Shown here: piece after piece, positions 48,107 to 55,331 of the stretch | Layout: the number at the start of each line of letters is the position of its first letter | Position numbering within the stretch: position 1 is the stretch's first letter | From: Myxococcus xanthus | Lineage (GTDB): Bacteria; Myxococcota; Myxococcia; Myxococcales; Myxococcaceae | Direction of reading: 5' to 3' | DNA length: 64,000 nucleotides | Assembly: GCF_900106535.1 (NCBI RefSeq) | Contig: NZ_FNOH01000001.1 | Span: 310,001-374,000, forward strand | Notes under the pieces: model-generated | Told to the model about the DNA's origin: nothing | What the model saw: the letters and a program-made list of their open reading frames with translations, nothing else | Databases searched by the model: none | Translations under genes and position numbers: made by a program

Positions 48107-49654
<1,548 letters not shown>

Positions 49655-49905
49655 GAGCGTATGCGTCCTTGCGCAGGGGCGGCCGACGTGGAGCAGGCCG
49701 CCGAAACCTTGAAGTCGGGGCCCCTTACCACGCACACCCACCCGCTGCAATGCGGTCCGCGCCACCCGCCACGGGGGCGGAGAGGACGCCCGTTCAGGAG
49801 TGGGACAGGCGGCTGCGCAAAGGCGCTCAAGGGGGTGGGCCAGAATCGTGCCTGGCTACTCTGGTGCATCAGCCTCCGTTGAGGCGGCGCCAGGCGCGGA
49901 GGCCT

Positions 49906-51384
49906 TCAATGCCCCGGCCCCTCGCGGGGCAGCCAGGCGGTGAAACTCATGCCGCCCCCGGAGCAGGACTCCACCGCCAGCTTCCCGCCGTGGGCCACGG
50001 CGATCTGCCTGGCGATGTAGAGCCCCAGGCCCAGGCCCTCTGGCGTGGCGCTGCGCTCCCTGCGGAAGGGCTCGAAGAGGGAGGAGCGCTCCTCCGCCGC
50101 CACCGTGAGTCTGGGACTCTGCACACACAGCGTGACGCCGCCCACCGCGCCCACCGCGCGCAGGGTGACCGGCGAATCCTCGGCCCCTTGATGGAGCACG
50201 CTGCCCAGGAGGTTGTCGGCCAGTTGCGCCAGCCGGTGGGTATCCCAGTGTCCGCGCAGGTCGCCTTCCGTCTCCAGGTGGAGGGTTCGCCCGGGATGCT
50301 CACGGCGGCGCTCCTCCACGACGCGCGTCACCACCGCGTCCAGCACGGCGGGCTCTGGCCGCAGCGCCAGTCCGCCCGCCAGCCGCGTGCGGGTGAAGTC
50401 CATCAACTCCTGGAGCATCCGCTCCATGCGCCGGGCGGACCGGGCCACCTGGCTCACCAGGGTCCGCTGCGGCTCCTCCAGCCCGTCCAGCCGCTGCAGG
50501 GAGCGCGTGCCCTCCCGCAGTGATTGCAGGGGCGCTCGCAGCTCCGCGTCTACGGCGCCCAGCATCTGGTGCCGGAACTGCTCGGTGTTCGCGGAGAGCT
50601 CCTCCGCGGCCTTGCGGCTGCTGATGTCCCAGACGGCGACCAACCGCACCTGCCGGCCTTCCCACGTCACGTAGCGCCCCAGCACCTCCAGGGGCAGCCG
50701 CTGGCCATCCCGGCGGAGGACGACCACCTCGTAGGGGGCCTCCAGCCCGCGGCTGAGCACCAGCCCCACCTGCGAGCGGAACTCCGGGGCGACGTAGTCC
50801 GCCAGGTGCCGGCCGATCATCTCTGAGGGTGACGCGTAGCCGAGCAGCTGCGACATCGCGCGGTTGGCGTCCATCACGATGCCGTTGTCATGCAGGAAGT
50901 GCCCGTCGCAGGCCACGTCCGCCAGGCTGCGCATGTGAGACTCCCGCGCGCGCAGCCGCTGCTCCTCGAGGAAGCGCTCCGTCTCATCGCGCACCCACAA
51001 TGCCACCCCCGCCAGCGCGCCGCCCTGCAGCGCCGGGGACAGACCCACCCGCAGGTGCCGCTCACCCGCGGCGGGGGCCAGCACGCCCCGCACAGGGGTA
51101 TCCGTGACGTCCTCTCCGGAGAGTGCCCGGGCCAGCAGCGGTGACAGCGCCTGCGCCACCTGCGGCCACAGCTCCGCGAGAGGACGGCCCACGTGCGCGC
51201 GCGGCTCCAGGCCGGACAGCGCCGCCAGCGTGGCATTCACCCACACCGGACGCAGCTCCCGGTCCAGCAGGGCCACCCCACAACCCGCCGCGCTCAGGAG
51301 GGCCCCCAGAAAGGGCCGAGCCTCCTCGGGCGCCGCCAGCGTGGACGGACCTTCGGAATACCGGTGGAGTAGGGACTGCGACAT
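49906..51384 (-). CDS. Degenerate PAS histidine kinase (likely pseudokinase) between atpH and atpA
   Basis: 492 residues. Two PAS domains (about 25-140 and 145-262, the second reading HDNGIVMDANRAMSQLLGY), then a HisKA-like helix and HATPase_c. Aligned to the intact kinase at 15201-17246, the phospho-acceptor His is Ala280 (QMLGAVDAELRAPL against LMAVLGHDLRNPL), the N-box Asn is Ser (NLLGSVLHQG against NLVANAIQHG), and the G1 box is gone (QSPRLTV in place of HNTGEPI). Only the G2 box GLGLGLYIARQIAVAHGG survives. It should not autophosphorylate, so if functional it acts by PAS sensing and binding. Gap to atpH 146 bp, to atpA 251 bp, same strand. Confidence 0.88.
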   Translation of the reverse strand: MSQSLLHRYSEGPSTLAAPEEARPFLGALLSAAGCGVALLDRELRPVWVNATLAALSGLEPRAHVGRPLAELWPQVAQALSPLLARALSGEDVTDTPVRGVLAPAAGERHLRVGLSPALQGGALAGVALWVRDETERFLEEQRLRARESHMRSLADVACDGHFLHDNGIVMDANRAMSQLLGYASPSEMIGRHLADYVAPEFRSQVGLVLSRGLEAPYEVVVLRRDGQRLPLEVLGRYVTWEGRQVRLVAVWDISSRKAAEELSANTEQFRHQMLGAVDAELRAPLQSLREGTRSLQRLDGLEEPQRTLVSQVARSARRMERMLQELMDFTRTRLAGGLALRPEPAVLDAVVTRVVEERRREHPGRTLHLETEGDLRGHWDTHRLAQLADNLLGSVLHQGAEDSPVTLRAVGAVGGVTLCVQSPRLTVAAEERSSLFEPFRRERSATPEGLGLGLYIARQIAVAHGGKLAVESCSGGGMSFTAWLPREGPGH

Positions 51385-51530
51385 GGTCAGGTCGTCCAGG
51401 CGGCGCGGGGCTGTCCCGCACCACCTGCGAGTATACCGCTGTCAGGGCCCGCTGGAAATACCGGTTAGCCCTGGACTGCGGGGTGATGAAGACGACCTGG
51501 AACGTTGGTTGCCCGGCGAGCGGGCGGACT

Positions 51531-52079
51531 TCAGCGCTGCTTCAATTCGCGGCGCATCTCTTCGAGCTGGGTCCGGATGCTGCCGTCGTAGAGGATGCTG
51601 CCCACCTGGGCGGAGACACCACCCAACAGGCTGGGGTCCACGCGCGTCTCCAGAAGGACGTTGCGCTGGGTCAGCTGCTGCAGGGTCTGCTGGAGCTGGG
51701 CAAGGGCGTCGGCCGGAAGCGGCGCGGCGCTGGTGACGTGGCCCCGGACGCGGCCGGCACGGGCGTCAGCCATGTCGCGGAAGAGGCGGGCGATGTCCGC
51801 CAGGTAGCCCAGGCGGTTGCGGTCCACCAGCAGGCGGAGGGTGTTGGCCAGCGTGGCCTCCACGCCGCCGGGGATGGCCTGCATCACCGACTCCACCACC
51901 CGCAGGCGTTGCTCACGGGTGTAGGCGGGGTTGACGAGCACATCCGTCAGCTCGGCGTTCTTCGCGATGACGTCGGCGAAGGCGGTGAGCTGCTCGGCGA
52001 CGGCGTCAGTGCGGCCCGCCTCCGAAGCGACATCGAGGAGGGCGCGGGCGTAGCGGCGGGCGATCGACACGTTCACCAT
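51531..52079 (-). CDS. atpH: ATP synthase F1 subunit delta
   Basis: 182 residues from the ATG at 52079. The start SIARRYARALLDVASE, the mid segment NTLRLLVDRNRLGYLADI and the C-terminal DPSLLGGVSAQVGSILYDGSI are the delta/OSCP signature. It links F1 to the peripheral stalk. No atpF or other F0 gene is upstream, since a divergent Hsp70 gene begins 191 bp away. Confidence 0.95.
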   Translation of the reverse strand: MVNVSIARRYARALLDVASEAGRTDAVAEQLTAFADVIAKNAELTDVLVNPAYTREQRLRVVESVMQAIPGGVEATLANTLRLLVDRNRLGYLADIARLFRDMADARAGRVRGHVTSAAPLPADALAQLQQTLQQLTQRNVLLETRVDPSLLGGVSAQVGSILYDGSIRTQLEEMRRELKQR

Positions 52080-52270
52080 GGCGGTCGCGCCCTTAGCACG
52101 GGGATTTCCCCCGAGCAACGTCCCTGGCATCGCGAAGCCCTGTCACCGGGGGCACGCTTGCTGGCCCGGGCCGTGGCATGGGGAAGCGCTGCTTATTGGC
52201 AGGCAGGTGAGGGAAGAGGGCTTGGCGAGCTGGCGCGAACACCCGTAGGGTGGTGTCCTCTCGGCCCCCC

Positions 52271-54097
52271 ATGCATGACCTCGTCATCGGCATCGACCTG
52301 GGTACTACCAACAGCGCCGTGGCGACCGTGGAAGACGGACGCCCGCGCATGATTCCCCCGCGCGCGGGTGGCCGGTTGACGCCGTCCACGCTGGGCGTGA
52401 ACAAAGCTGGCGAGCGCGTGGTGGGCGTCGCGGCACAATCCCTGGGCGAGGAGCACCCGGACTCCGTGGTGTGGGCCACCAAGCGTTTCCTGGGGCGCCG
52501 CTACACGCCGGAGCTGGTTCAGGAGGCGAAGGCGCTGGTGCCGTATCCGCTGGTGGCCGGGCCCTCTGGCGACGTGCGCGTGCGGCTCGCCGGGCGGGTG
52601 ATGCCCGTCACGCAGGTGTCCGCGATGATTCTGGGCGAGCTGGCCCTGGACGCGCAGGCGCACTTCGGCCGCCCCGTTACCAAGTGTGTCATCACGGTTC
52701 CGGCCAACTTCGACGACAACCAGCGGCAGGCCACGCGCGAGGCGGCCAGCATCGCCGGGCTGGACGTGGTGCGGCTGGTGAACGAGCCCACCGCCGCGGC
52801 GCTGGCGTATGGCCTGTCACGCGGCTTCGAAGGCAACGCGCTGGTGTTCGACCTGGGCGGTGGCACCTTCGATGTGTCCATCCTCGAGGTGAAGTCCGGT
52901 GTCTTCGAGGTGCGCGCCACCGGCGGCGATCCGCGGCTGGGTGGCGAGGACTTCGACCAGCGCATCGTCCAGTGGCTCCTGGCGCAGGTGGACGATGAGC
53001 TGCGGCACGTGGTGTCGCAGGACGCGCAGAGCCTGCGCCGGCTGAAGGTGGCCGCCGAGTCCGCCAAGCGCGAGCTCACCGAGAAGGAAGAGGCGTCCAT
53101 CTACGTCGCCGGGTTGGGCGACCACTCGGCGCCCGGCAAGCGGATGGCGGAGCTGGAGACGGTGCTGACGCGCTCCTTCTTCGAAACGCTGTCCGAGCCG
53201 CTGTCGCGCCGCTGCCTCGATGTCTGCGAGTCGGTGATGCGCGAGGCGAAGATGGACCCCCACGCGGTGGACGTGGTGCTGCTGGTGGGCGGCATGACGC
53301 GCGTGCCGCTGGTGCGGCGGTTGGTGGCGGACTTTTTCGGCCGCGCGCCCTCCACGGACGTGCACCCGGAGGAGGCCGTCGCGCTGGGCGCTGCGGTGCA
53401 GGCCGACGAGCTCGTCCGCCAGTCCGGTCAGGCGCTGCTGCTGGACGTCGCCGCCCAGAGCCTGGGCGTGGGCGTCATGGGTGGGCGCGTGAAGCGGCTC
53501 ATCCCGAAGAACACCGGCGTGCCGGTGGTGGCGCGGGACATCTTCTATCCGGGCAGCTCCGGCCAGCAGGAAGCGCGCATCCCCGTGTATCAGGGCGAGA
53601 GCGAGTTCCAGGACGAGAACTACAAGCTGGGCGAGGTGGTGCTGAAGCGCCTCCACGTCGCCGCGCGCGGAGAGGTGCCGCTGGAGGTCGTCTTCGAGCT
53701 GTCCAGCGAGGCCATCCTGTCCGTCAAGGCCACGGACCTGACCTCGGGCAACATGGAGGCCGTGCGGCTGGAGGCCCGTGCGGGGCTGCCGCAGGGCGAG
53801 GCGGAGAAGCTGGGCGCGGAGCAGGCCCACTACGCGCGCTCGCAGGGCGTGGTGGACGCGAAGCGCGCGGAGGAGCTGTTCCGCAAGCTGCTGGAGCGCG
53901 GGGAGAAGCTGGCGCGGTTGCTCCAGCGCAGCGCGCAGGAGAACCCCAGCCCGGAGGCGCAGGCCACCCTGGGCACGGTGCAGCGTCTGTTGGATGGTGG
54001 CCGCTCTGCCCTCGACAGCGGCAACGCGGCGCAGTGCGCCACCATTGCCAAGCAGCTCACGCGGTTGTTGTCCGGTCGCCAGGAGCCTCGCGCCTGA
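52271..54097 (+). CDS. Hsp70 (DnaK-like) chaperone
   Basis: 608 residues from the ATG at 52271. ATPase signatures are intact: [24 protein letters not shown] and [16 protein letters not shown]. The substrate domain lacks the usual DnaK length and ends without the acidic EEVD/EVEE-type lid tail, finishing in a helical region of about 100 residues. It is probably one of the several extra Hsp70s of myxobacteria, some of which act in motility or development. No dnaJ or grpE beside it; a REC-PilZ gene follows after 70 bp. Confidence 0.92.
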
Positions 54098-54167: not shown

Positions 54168-55331
54168 ATGAGCCCTCCTCCCAACGCGCGTGACACCGTG
54201 TTCGTGGTGGATGACTCCCGTACCGCCCGGGAGGTGGTGCGCCTGCACCTGACACGGCTGGGCTGCGAGGCGGTGGCGCTGGAGGGCGGCGAGGCGTGCA
54301 TGGCCGAGCTGGCCCGGCGCACCCCGGCGCTCATCCTGTTGGACCTGCGCATGGAGCGCATGCAGGGGGACGAGGTGTGCCGGCTGGTGAAGGCACACGC
54401 CGCGGGGCGCAACGTGCCCGTCATCATGTTCACCTCCGGCGGCGAGCCCCACGAGGTGATGCACTGCTGGCGCGCGGGCGCCGACGACTTCCTGCCCAAG
54501 CCGGTGGCGCTGGGCGCCCTGGAGGCGAAGCTGGCCGCGGTGCGCCAGGCCCGGGAGCGTGTCCGCGAGGGCCCGCCGCGTGGGCGCCGGGTGCTGCTGG
54601 TGGAGGGCGGCCGTTTCCTGCACACCTTCCTGGGCGGCTCGTTGGAGCAGGAGGGCCTCCACGTCCTCTACGCCCGGGACATGGGGGACGCGGCGAACCT
54701 GGCGGCGGAGCACGGCGCGCAGTTGGATGGCTTCGTGGTGGACGTGTCGCGCACGCCGCGCGAGGCGCTGGCCCTGGCCACGAAGCTCCACGACGCGCAC
54801 CCGCGCAAGCCGCTGGTGCTGCTGTCGCGCGCGGAGGAGTCGCAGGAGGTGCTCGCCCGGGCGCAGGCGCTGGGTGGCGCGCCGCTCCTGGAGAAGCGTC
54901 ACATGGGTGCGGACGAGCTGCTCGGCTGCGTTCTGGGGCGACTGGTTCCGGGCCACGCCCCGCTGCGCGCCGCGGAGCGCGTGCCCTTCTTCACGGTGGT
55001 GGAGTTCACCACGCCCAACGGGGCAACGCTGTCGGGCTTCAGCCATGACGCGGGGCCGGGCGCGCTCTTCGTGCGCACCCTGACGCCGGCGCGCGAGGGC
55101 ACCCGGCTGACGCTGAAGGTGTTGCTCGCGGGCCAGCGCGCGCCCTGCACCGCCGAGGCGACGGTGGCGTGGTCCAACCCGCCCCTGCCGCAGGGCGTCT
55201 TCCGGTCCTCGGTGGGCATGGGGCTGCGGCTGGAGCACATGGACCCGGTGCTCACCCAGCAGTTCGTCCGCTTCGTGCCCCGGGGTCTCGGTTTTCCGGC
55301 TCCAGGTTCGCCGCGCGCCTCAGGTTTCTGA
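54168..55331 (+). CDS. Response regulator with pseudo-receiver and PilZ-like domain
   Basis: 387 residues from the ATG at 54168. Residues 8-125 are a full receiver (VVDDS, Asp59 in LILLDLRMERMQGD, Lys in FLPKPVALG). Residues 145-260 look like a second receiver that has lost the acidic pair (VEGGRFL) but keeps VVDVS. The C-terminal 110 residues (FFTVVEFTTPNGATLSGFSH, ARSS-type GPGALFVRT, VGMGLRLEHMD) resemble the myxobacterial PilZ-like domain; the RxxxR c-di-GMP motif is not obvious. Possibly co-transcribed with the Hsp70 gene. Confidence 0.8.
   Translation: MSPPPNARDTVFVVDDSRTAREVVRLHLTRLGCEAVALEGGEACMAELARRTPALILLDLRMERMQGDEVCRLVKAHAAGRNVPVIMFTSGGEPHEVMHCWRAGADDFLPKPVALGALEAKLAAVRQARERVREGPPRGRRVLLVEGGRFLHTFLGGSLEQEGLHVLYARDMGDAANLAAEHGAQLDGFVVDVSRTPREALALATKLHDAHPRKPLVLLSRAEESQEVLARAQALGGAPLLEKRHMGADELLGCVLGRLVPGHAPLRAAERVPFFTVVEFTTPNGATLSGFSHDAGPGALFVRTLTPAREGTRLTLKVLLAGQRAPCTAEATVAWSNPPLPQGVFRSSVGMGLRLEHMDPVLTQQFVRFVPRGLGFPAPGSPRASGF

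Follow-up and report, generated by a model that had tools for sequence, protein, structure and literature searches.

An apparently kinase-dead PAS histidine kinase paralogue conserved between atpH and atpA in Myxococcus and related genera

The gene lying between atpH and atpA in Myxococcus xanthus encodes a protein that has the PAS-PAS-DHp-CA build of a histidine kinase without its catalytic residues, yet is under purifying selection. We consider it probable (roughly 60%) that this is a non-catalytic, binding-based pseudo-histidine-kinase, working like DivL or NifL and maintained by purifying selection, and the loss of catalysis under such selection, together with a build shared with DivL and NifL, fits a binding role. 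The protein appears dead as judged from its residues, and its link to ATP synthase is positional only. The window referred to below is the whole stretch of M. xanthus DNA analyzed (64,000 nt).

Gene and Genomic Neighborhood

The gene and its neighbors in the window are as follows.

48107..49654, minus strand: atpA (F1 alpha subunit), the downstream neighbor
49906..51384, minus strand: pseudo-histidine-kinase gene, PAS-PAS-DHp-CA, ATG start, 492 aa, stop codon included in the coordinates
51531..52079, minus strand: atpH (F1 delta subunit), the upstream neighbor; its orthologues in genomes G032 and G103 match OSCP (PF00213)
52250..54097, plus strand: Hsp70-like gene diverging from atpH and belonging to the conserved block, at 64/64 kinase-bearing loci
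54168-55331: response-regulator-PilZ gene beyond the Hsp70-like gene, kept at 9/9 named loci of the genus

The ORF coordinates agree with the sequence-only reading, in which the kinase gene was flanked by atpH and atpA with all three on one strand. The atpG gene lies approximately 124 kb from atpA and atpB is on another contig. The response-regulator-PilZ gene is probably MXAN_7024 of M. xanthus and, from gene order, we infer that the kinase gene is MXAN_7027; published papers give MXAN_7025 as Hsp70 and MXAN_7024 as a PilZ protein, in agreement with the M. xanthus block. Loss of MXAN_7024 is reported to have caused no growth or development defect (PMC8844925). The open-licence literature found for MXAN_7024 to MXAN_7029 covered only MXAN_7024 and MXAN_7025, with no publication on the kinase gene, and none of the open-licence matches listed on kinases in atp clusters, or on genes inserted there, concerned it.

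Domain Architecture and Catalytic Residues

Pfam assigned two PAS stretches (residues 32-137 and 166-255) and a HATPase_c domain (381-488) to the protein, with a HisKA domain (273-332) barely above its cut-off (28.2 bits vs. 26.9). Among the best 25 of 59 NCBIfam rows, the PAS S-box domain alone passed its cut-off and no named kinase did. In a model built from 29 orthologues (mean pLDDT 81.5) the two PAS domains are followed by a long DHp hairpin and the CA domain; the pTM was only 0.46, leaving the domain arrangement uncertain. Structure (Foldseek) and profile matches included the ordinary kinases HK853 and LOV-HK as well as the non-kinases DivL (4q20) and NifL (9qq6). The DHp and CA folds are thus supported by Pfam, by the model and by Foldseek.

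Two residues expected of a HisKA kinase, the acceptor His and the second N-box Asn, were both replaced, by Ala280 and Ser395 respectively. In HisKA kinases the Asn at the equivalent of position 395 binds Mg. The first Asn (391) of the N-box, ADNLLGSVL, was retained. The G1 region reads VQSPRLTVA and contains no G1 motif, and the G2 box (GLGLGLYI) is intact. The sequence-only reading had described a protein that keeps both PAS domains and G2 but has lost the acceptor His, the N-box Asn and G1; the retained parts and the first two losses were borne out, with the qualification that Asn391 is still present. The claim on G1 held only in part. Of the 22 closest paralogues in the same genome we read 20, and each of these keeps the His and both N-box Asn residues, therefore these losses are particular to the kinase gene in the atpH/atpA gap. 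In the ten best-scoring of the 20, however, Asn replaces the G1 Asp (VHNxG or alike), and the kinase-intact orthologues of genus g8 carry NEGPPVP. The ancestral G1 of this subfamily was probably already not DxGxG before the other losses, and the absence of the motif is therefore only partly specific to the window protein.

Other parts of the protein are highly conserved. The G2 box and 25 CA columns were invariant across orthologues, so nucleotide binding may survive. Cys159, Asp160, Gly161 and His165 of the second PAS domain were invariant in 64/64 orthologues, and Cys159 and His165 possibly form a redox or cofactor site. Seven paralogue stretches could be aligned at positions 159 and 165; none had both Cys and His, and one had Cys at 159.

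Distribution and Synteny

An orthologue was present in 64 of the 96 family genomes (61 of the 83 of good quality), including all 27 of the genus Myxococcus, and in 8 of 26 genera; named records with the gene include M. xanthus AM003, M. vastator and M. eversor. Outside the family, the top match among 24 genomes from the same order had an E of 7e-47, as a paralogue would. The kinase gene followed atpH at all 64 orthologous loci. The atpH-kinase-atpA order, which the earlier reading had proposed to look for in other Myxococcaceae, recurs on one strand with both neighbors at 58 of the 64, and at the other six the contig breaks off within the kinase gene or beyond it. Six assemblies of genus g31 (L083, L084, L085, L060, L061, L063) stop within the gene or shortly beyond it, at about codons 304-320 in three cases; sequencing of this stretch is perhaps difficult. 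A record titled Comamonas sp. KCTC 72670 (L046) carries the Myxococcus kinase gene at 80% identity and is probably mislabelled.

In two genomes without the kinase gene (G109 and G035) atpH and atpA are approximately 100 nt apart, which is likely the ancestral state. A third, G034, has both genes 1050 nt apart with no histidine kinase (L086:2926-3975); no kinase remnant was found in this gap (best tblastn E 0.087), which is occupied by an opposite-strand ORF without a Pfam match. A single-gene atpA tree unites the genus Myxococcus with g8, g32 and g4 and conflicts with the kinase tree, therefore the placing of G034 among kinase-bearing genera, and hence a loss of the gene there, is tentative.

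Promoter-Like Elements and Transcription

Three predicted elements lie around the kinase gene.

49722..49750, minus strand: promoter-like element of atpA, TTGCAG-17-TAAGGG, at 57/57 kinase-bearing loci tested; not called by the consensus scan
51397..51427, minus strand: hairpin predicted in the leader, after the -10 element and before the start codon, in most orthologues
51430..51458, minus strand: promoter-like element of the pseudokinase gene, TTTCCA-17-TATACT, the sole sigma70-type match in 49600-52200

Shuffles of the scanned region gave an average of 0.0 sigma70-type matches. An element like TTTCCA-17-TATACT was found in all 64 orthologous gaps (59 by pattern, five by eye with one base outside it), and the atpA element, TTGCRG-17/18-TARGGG (TTGCGA in part of g31), at the 57 loci and in G034 with none in 26 others; both patterns were drawn up after the alignment had been seen. 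Across 29 of the 64 gaps aligned, the mean major-base frequency was 0.87 in the promoter blocks, 0.68 in the spacer and 0.63 in the rest. A search for a regulon sharing the kinase promoter element (up to two mismatches, genome-wide) returned one match, its own locus, against two for the reversed control, and this candidate was dropped.

The leader hairpin was assessed in an alignment of 47 of the 52 distinct leaders, omitting four of a hairpin-less g33 subclade and that of G029 (12-nt leader); when all 52 were aligned the stem columns were scattered, and that alignment was disregarded. In the 47, 89.4% of cells pair and the covariation score was 0.310, compared to 0.176 for shuffles and at most 0.151 for slid partners, with paired-cell share, double changes and covariation score each above 500/500 shuffles. 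On stricter measures, pairs changed on both sides were matched by 177 of 500 shuffles and pair types by 357. Support for covariation is mixed, and it is not firmly shown. RNA folding z-scores were -0.36 and -1.50 for the kinase-atpA gap, +1.60 for the atpH side and -1.66 for the kinase leader, none of them striking, and a scan for intrinsic terminators in 49600-52200 found none.

Co-transcription with the atp genes and an effect on ATP synthase, both raised by the earlier reading, are not supported so far. The presence of separate promoter-like elements for the kinase gene and atpA, and the location of atpG and atpB elsewhere, make an obligate three-gene operon unlikely, although read-through may occur. 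The same observations favor an incidental position, in which the gene encodes a maintained pseudokinase, an orphan sensor with its own promoter that is unconnected with ATP synthase. It would at some time have inserted between two housekeeping genes and remained there because its neighbors can each be transcribed alone. We give this a little under an even chance. The kinase-atpA gap varies from 123 to 365 nt and G034 has both neighbors without the kinase. The Hsp70-atpH neighborhood is also conserved, with an Hsp70-like gene preceding atpH in four more genomes that lack the kinase, so slow rearrangement alone could keep the order. A purely incidental position sits less easily with a slot that was filled in 58/58 genomes where both flanks are visible, across eight genera and down to 44% protein identity, or with protein-kinase genes occupying the same slot in two other genera.

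Kinase-Like Genes Upstream of atpA in Other Genera

Three genomes belonging to two genera have a Ser/Thr kinase with a TonB_C domain between atpH and atpA (G103, L093:1671-3755; G032, L098:759-2858; G108, L112:871-2979), in which VALK, HRDLKPAN and DFG are intact. Directly upstream of atpA, two genomes of genus g42 (G111 and G112; L101:2004-3275, L102:1796-3322) have a Ser/Thr pseudokinase that lacks VAIK, HRD and DFG. In G106 (L096) the protein that precedes atpA has two kinase-like parts, of which one is intact and the other apparently dead. No atpH was found near atpA in G106, G111 and G112.

Protein kinases are common (24-105 per genome in the nine genomes searched) and the pattern was noticed post hoc, it is therefore a lead and not a result. 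A slot before atpA that recruits signaling proteins governing F1 synthesis or assembly, with a histidine kinase turned pure sensor through repeated independent losses of catalysis, a Ser/Thr kinase and a Ser/Thr pseudokinase in separate clades, seems to us quite improbable. If it were so, an intracellular PAS signal would be coupled to ATP synthase in myxobacteria through binding and not phosphorylation, and a functional position would make the protein an uncommon kind of regulator associated with F1 genes.

Loss of Catalytic Residues Across Orthologues

His280 was retained in 21 of the 64 orthologues and replaced in the remainder by Asn, Thr, Asp, Ala, Val, Ser, Gln, Gly or Pro. A maximum likelihood tree was built from 61 copies, omitting three truncated orthologues and masking the His and two N-box columns, and Asn395 was present in 35 of these 61. 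The tree separates a clade of genera g1, g30 and g31 (support 100/100) from the remainder (99.6/100). Both His280 and Asn395 were present in 0/45 copies of the g1+g30+g31 clade (counting three truncated g31 copies outside the tree) compared to 17/19 in its sister clade. For three of the eight genera, no copy examined has kept all the residues needed by a kinase, His280, Asn395 or both being absent.

Parsimony (Fitch, midpoint root) gave at least five changes at the His, or nine losses when no regain is permitted; since the atpA tree groups the genera differently, the species history on which these counts depend is still provisional. Three members of the genus retain His with Ser395 and two retain Asn395 with Thr280. 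This loss in different orders is as expected if catalysis ceased to matter early and the positions then drifted. The His of these three members and of G083 could be a regain in single species, Asn to His being a change of one base. Retained His280 codons were CAT in 18 of 21 cases, compared to 105 of 959 His codons over the 64 genes, where mean third-position GC is 0.94. Of 12 Asn replacements of His280, nine were AAT, one base from CAT.

The earlier reading had taken orthologues with intact boxes as a possible sign of sequence error. Such orthologues do exist, as the sister clade shows for His and Asn, but they look ancestral and give no sign of error. Four genomes at 96-98% protein identity are also His-less (Ala or Val) with Ser395, so the residues of the window protein are not a sequencing error.

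As a subunit of a heterodimer with an active paralogous kinase the window protein might lend its PAS sensor or share catalysis in trans in the style of ChrS-HrrS, for which PMC9491836 provides a precedent. The predicted DHp helices would permit this and related kinases are numerous in the genome (112 matches with the window protein included), but the closest paralogue is only about 35% identical and no kinase gene adjoins the pseudokinase gene in the block, and we regard this arrangement as unlikely. We are more doubtful that it is a HisKA protein with phosphatase activity alone, directed at a response regulator. The His is reported not to be essential for phosphatase activity in CrdS and EnvZ, whereas a T/N residue is needed in the kinases tested (PMC3510030). 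The acidic residue and T/N284 are retained in 13 of the 43 His-less orthologues, some of which may be phosphatases. The window protein has Ala284 at the T/N position, which makes this role unlikely in M. xanthus.

Selection on the Pseudokinase Gene

The frame was complete with a stop codon in 60/64 orthologues and the other four run off a contig end. Whole-gene omega (GY) in seven clades, from 46 of the 64 copies, was 0.082 (Myxococcus clade), 0.123, 0.052, 0.116, 0.074, 0.116 and 0.116; runs stuck at omega 1.000 (Pyx atpH, g31 PAS2, g32 DHp) were discarded. Pairwise dN/dS (NG86) against six close relatives was 0.118-0.263. The sequence-only reading had judged the intact 492-codon frame unlikely to be a fresh pseudogene and had named a dN/dS near 1 as the value that would speak against this; all values were far below 1 and the judgement stands. 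That the gene is a decaying pseudogene or sequencing artefact has a negligible probability: catalytic residues do vary freely among relatives, but complete frames, omega of 0.05-0.12 and residue changes repeated in independent genomes rule it out.

Two control kinases bearing the His in the same genomes had GY omega of 0.099 and 0.047, compared to 0.072-0.074 for the pseudokinase in matched genomes. Over the last 240 codons the pseudokinase had an omega of 0.071-0.078 compared to 0.063 and 0.014 for the controls, therefore its transmitter is not conserved beyond the level of ordinary kinases. The PAS/transmitter omega ratio (NG86, bootstrap over codons) in the Myxococcus clade was 0.52 (0.31-0.79), with the PAS part more constrained, and 0.58 (0.33-1.00) in one g31 clade. 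In the intact genera it was 2.26 (1.51-3.39) for g8 and 1.48 (0.96-2.37) for g32, and Pyx and Cor-like, both wholly or mostly His-less, gave 1.93 and 1.20. The shift of constraint from transmitter to PAS is thus not general among the four wholly or mostly His-less clades.

Proposed Mode of Action

For a binding-based pseudo-histidine-kinase, the following course may be proposed. A competent histidine kinase would have entered the atpH-atpA gap before the eight genera diverged, and its activity would no longer have been selected in the g1+g30+g31 clade. The gene would be transcribed at least partly from its own promoter. In the protein, the PAS domains would sense an intracellular cue and alter the conformation of the DHp/CA part, which would bind and modulate a partner, be it a response regulator, a second kinase or some other kind of protein. 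Separate losses of the acceptor His under lasting purifying selection make it testable what is kept (PAS sensor, DHp dimer, CA fold), and the orthologue series also allows the order of losses, and which step came first, to be tested.

Comparison With Known Systems

The ordinary PAS-HisKA-HATPase_c kinases of the M. xanthus genome have the same fold, and the Asn-type G1 is shared by the ten best-scoring; unlike the window protein, the paralogues read keep the phospho-acceptor and both Asn residues. Few pseudo-histidine-kinases are understood, DivL and NifL being the ones met here. ChrS-CA-fs of Corynebacterium, a histidine kinase without kinase activity, signals by way of its paralogue HrrS (PMC9491836). 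It originated as a laboratory frameshift, whereas here residues were lost repeatedly in nature and the frame is intact.

NifL of Azotobacter has PAS sensors followed by H and GHKL domains, has no kinase activity and controls NifA by binding (PMC8063818). The window protein likewise has PAS domains and a kinase-like end, and matched the NifL structure (9qq6) with 15% identity. It differs in that its N-box and G1 are worn, and nifL shares an operon with its partner nifA, whereas the window protein has no such known partner.

DivL of Caulobacter showed no kinase activity in vitro, nor did it act as a phosphatase, and it binds a response regulator in the phosphorylated form (PMC4211667). Both DivL and the window protein combine PAS sensors with a DHp-CA transmitter without the His (Tyr in DivL, Ala280 in the window protein), and they share 29-30% identity in the structure match (4q20) with an E of 1.1e-26 in the profile match. 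DivL belongs to another locus and lineage, and descent of the window protein from it is not implied. A further difference is that here sister genera still have the form in which His and Asn are intact, so that the conversion of kinase to pseudokinase can be followed, with 64 syntenic orthologues tracing it from an apparently competent kinase to a kinase-dead sensor at one fixed locus.
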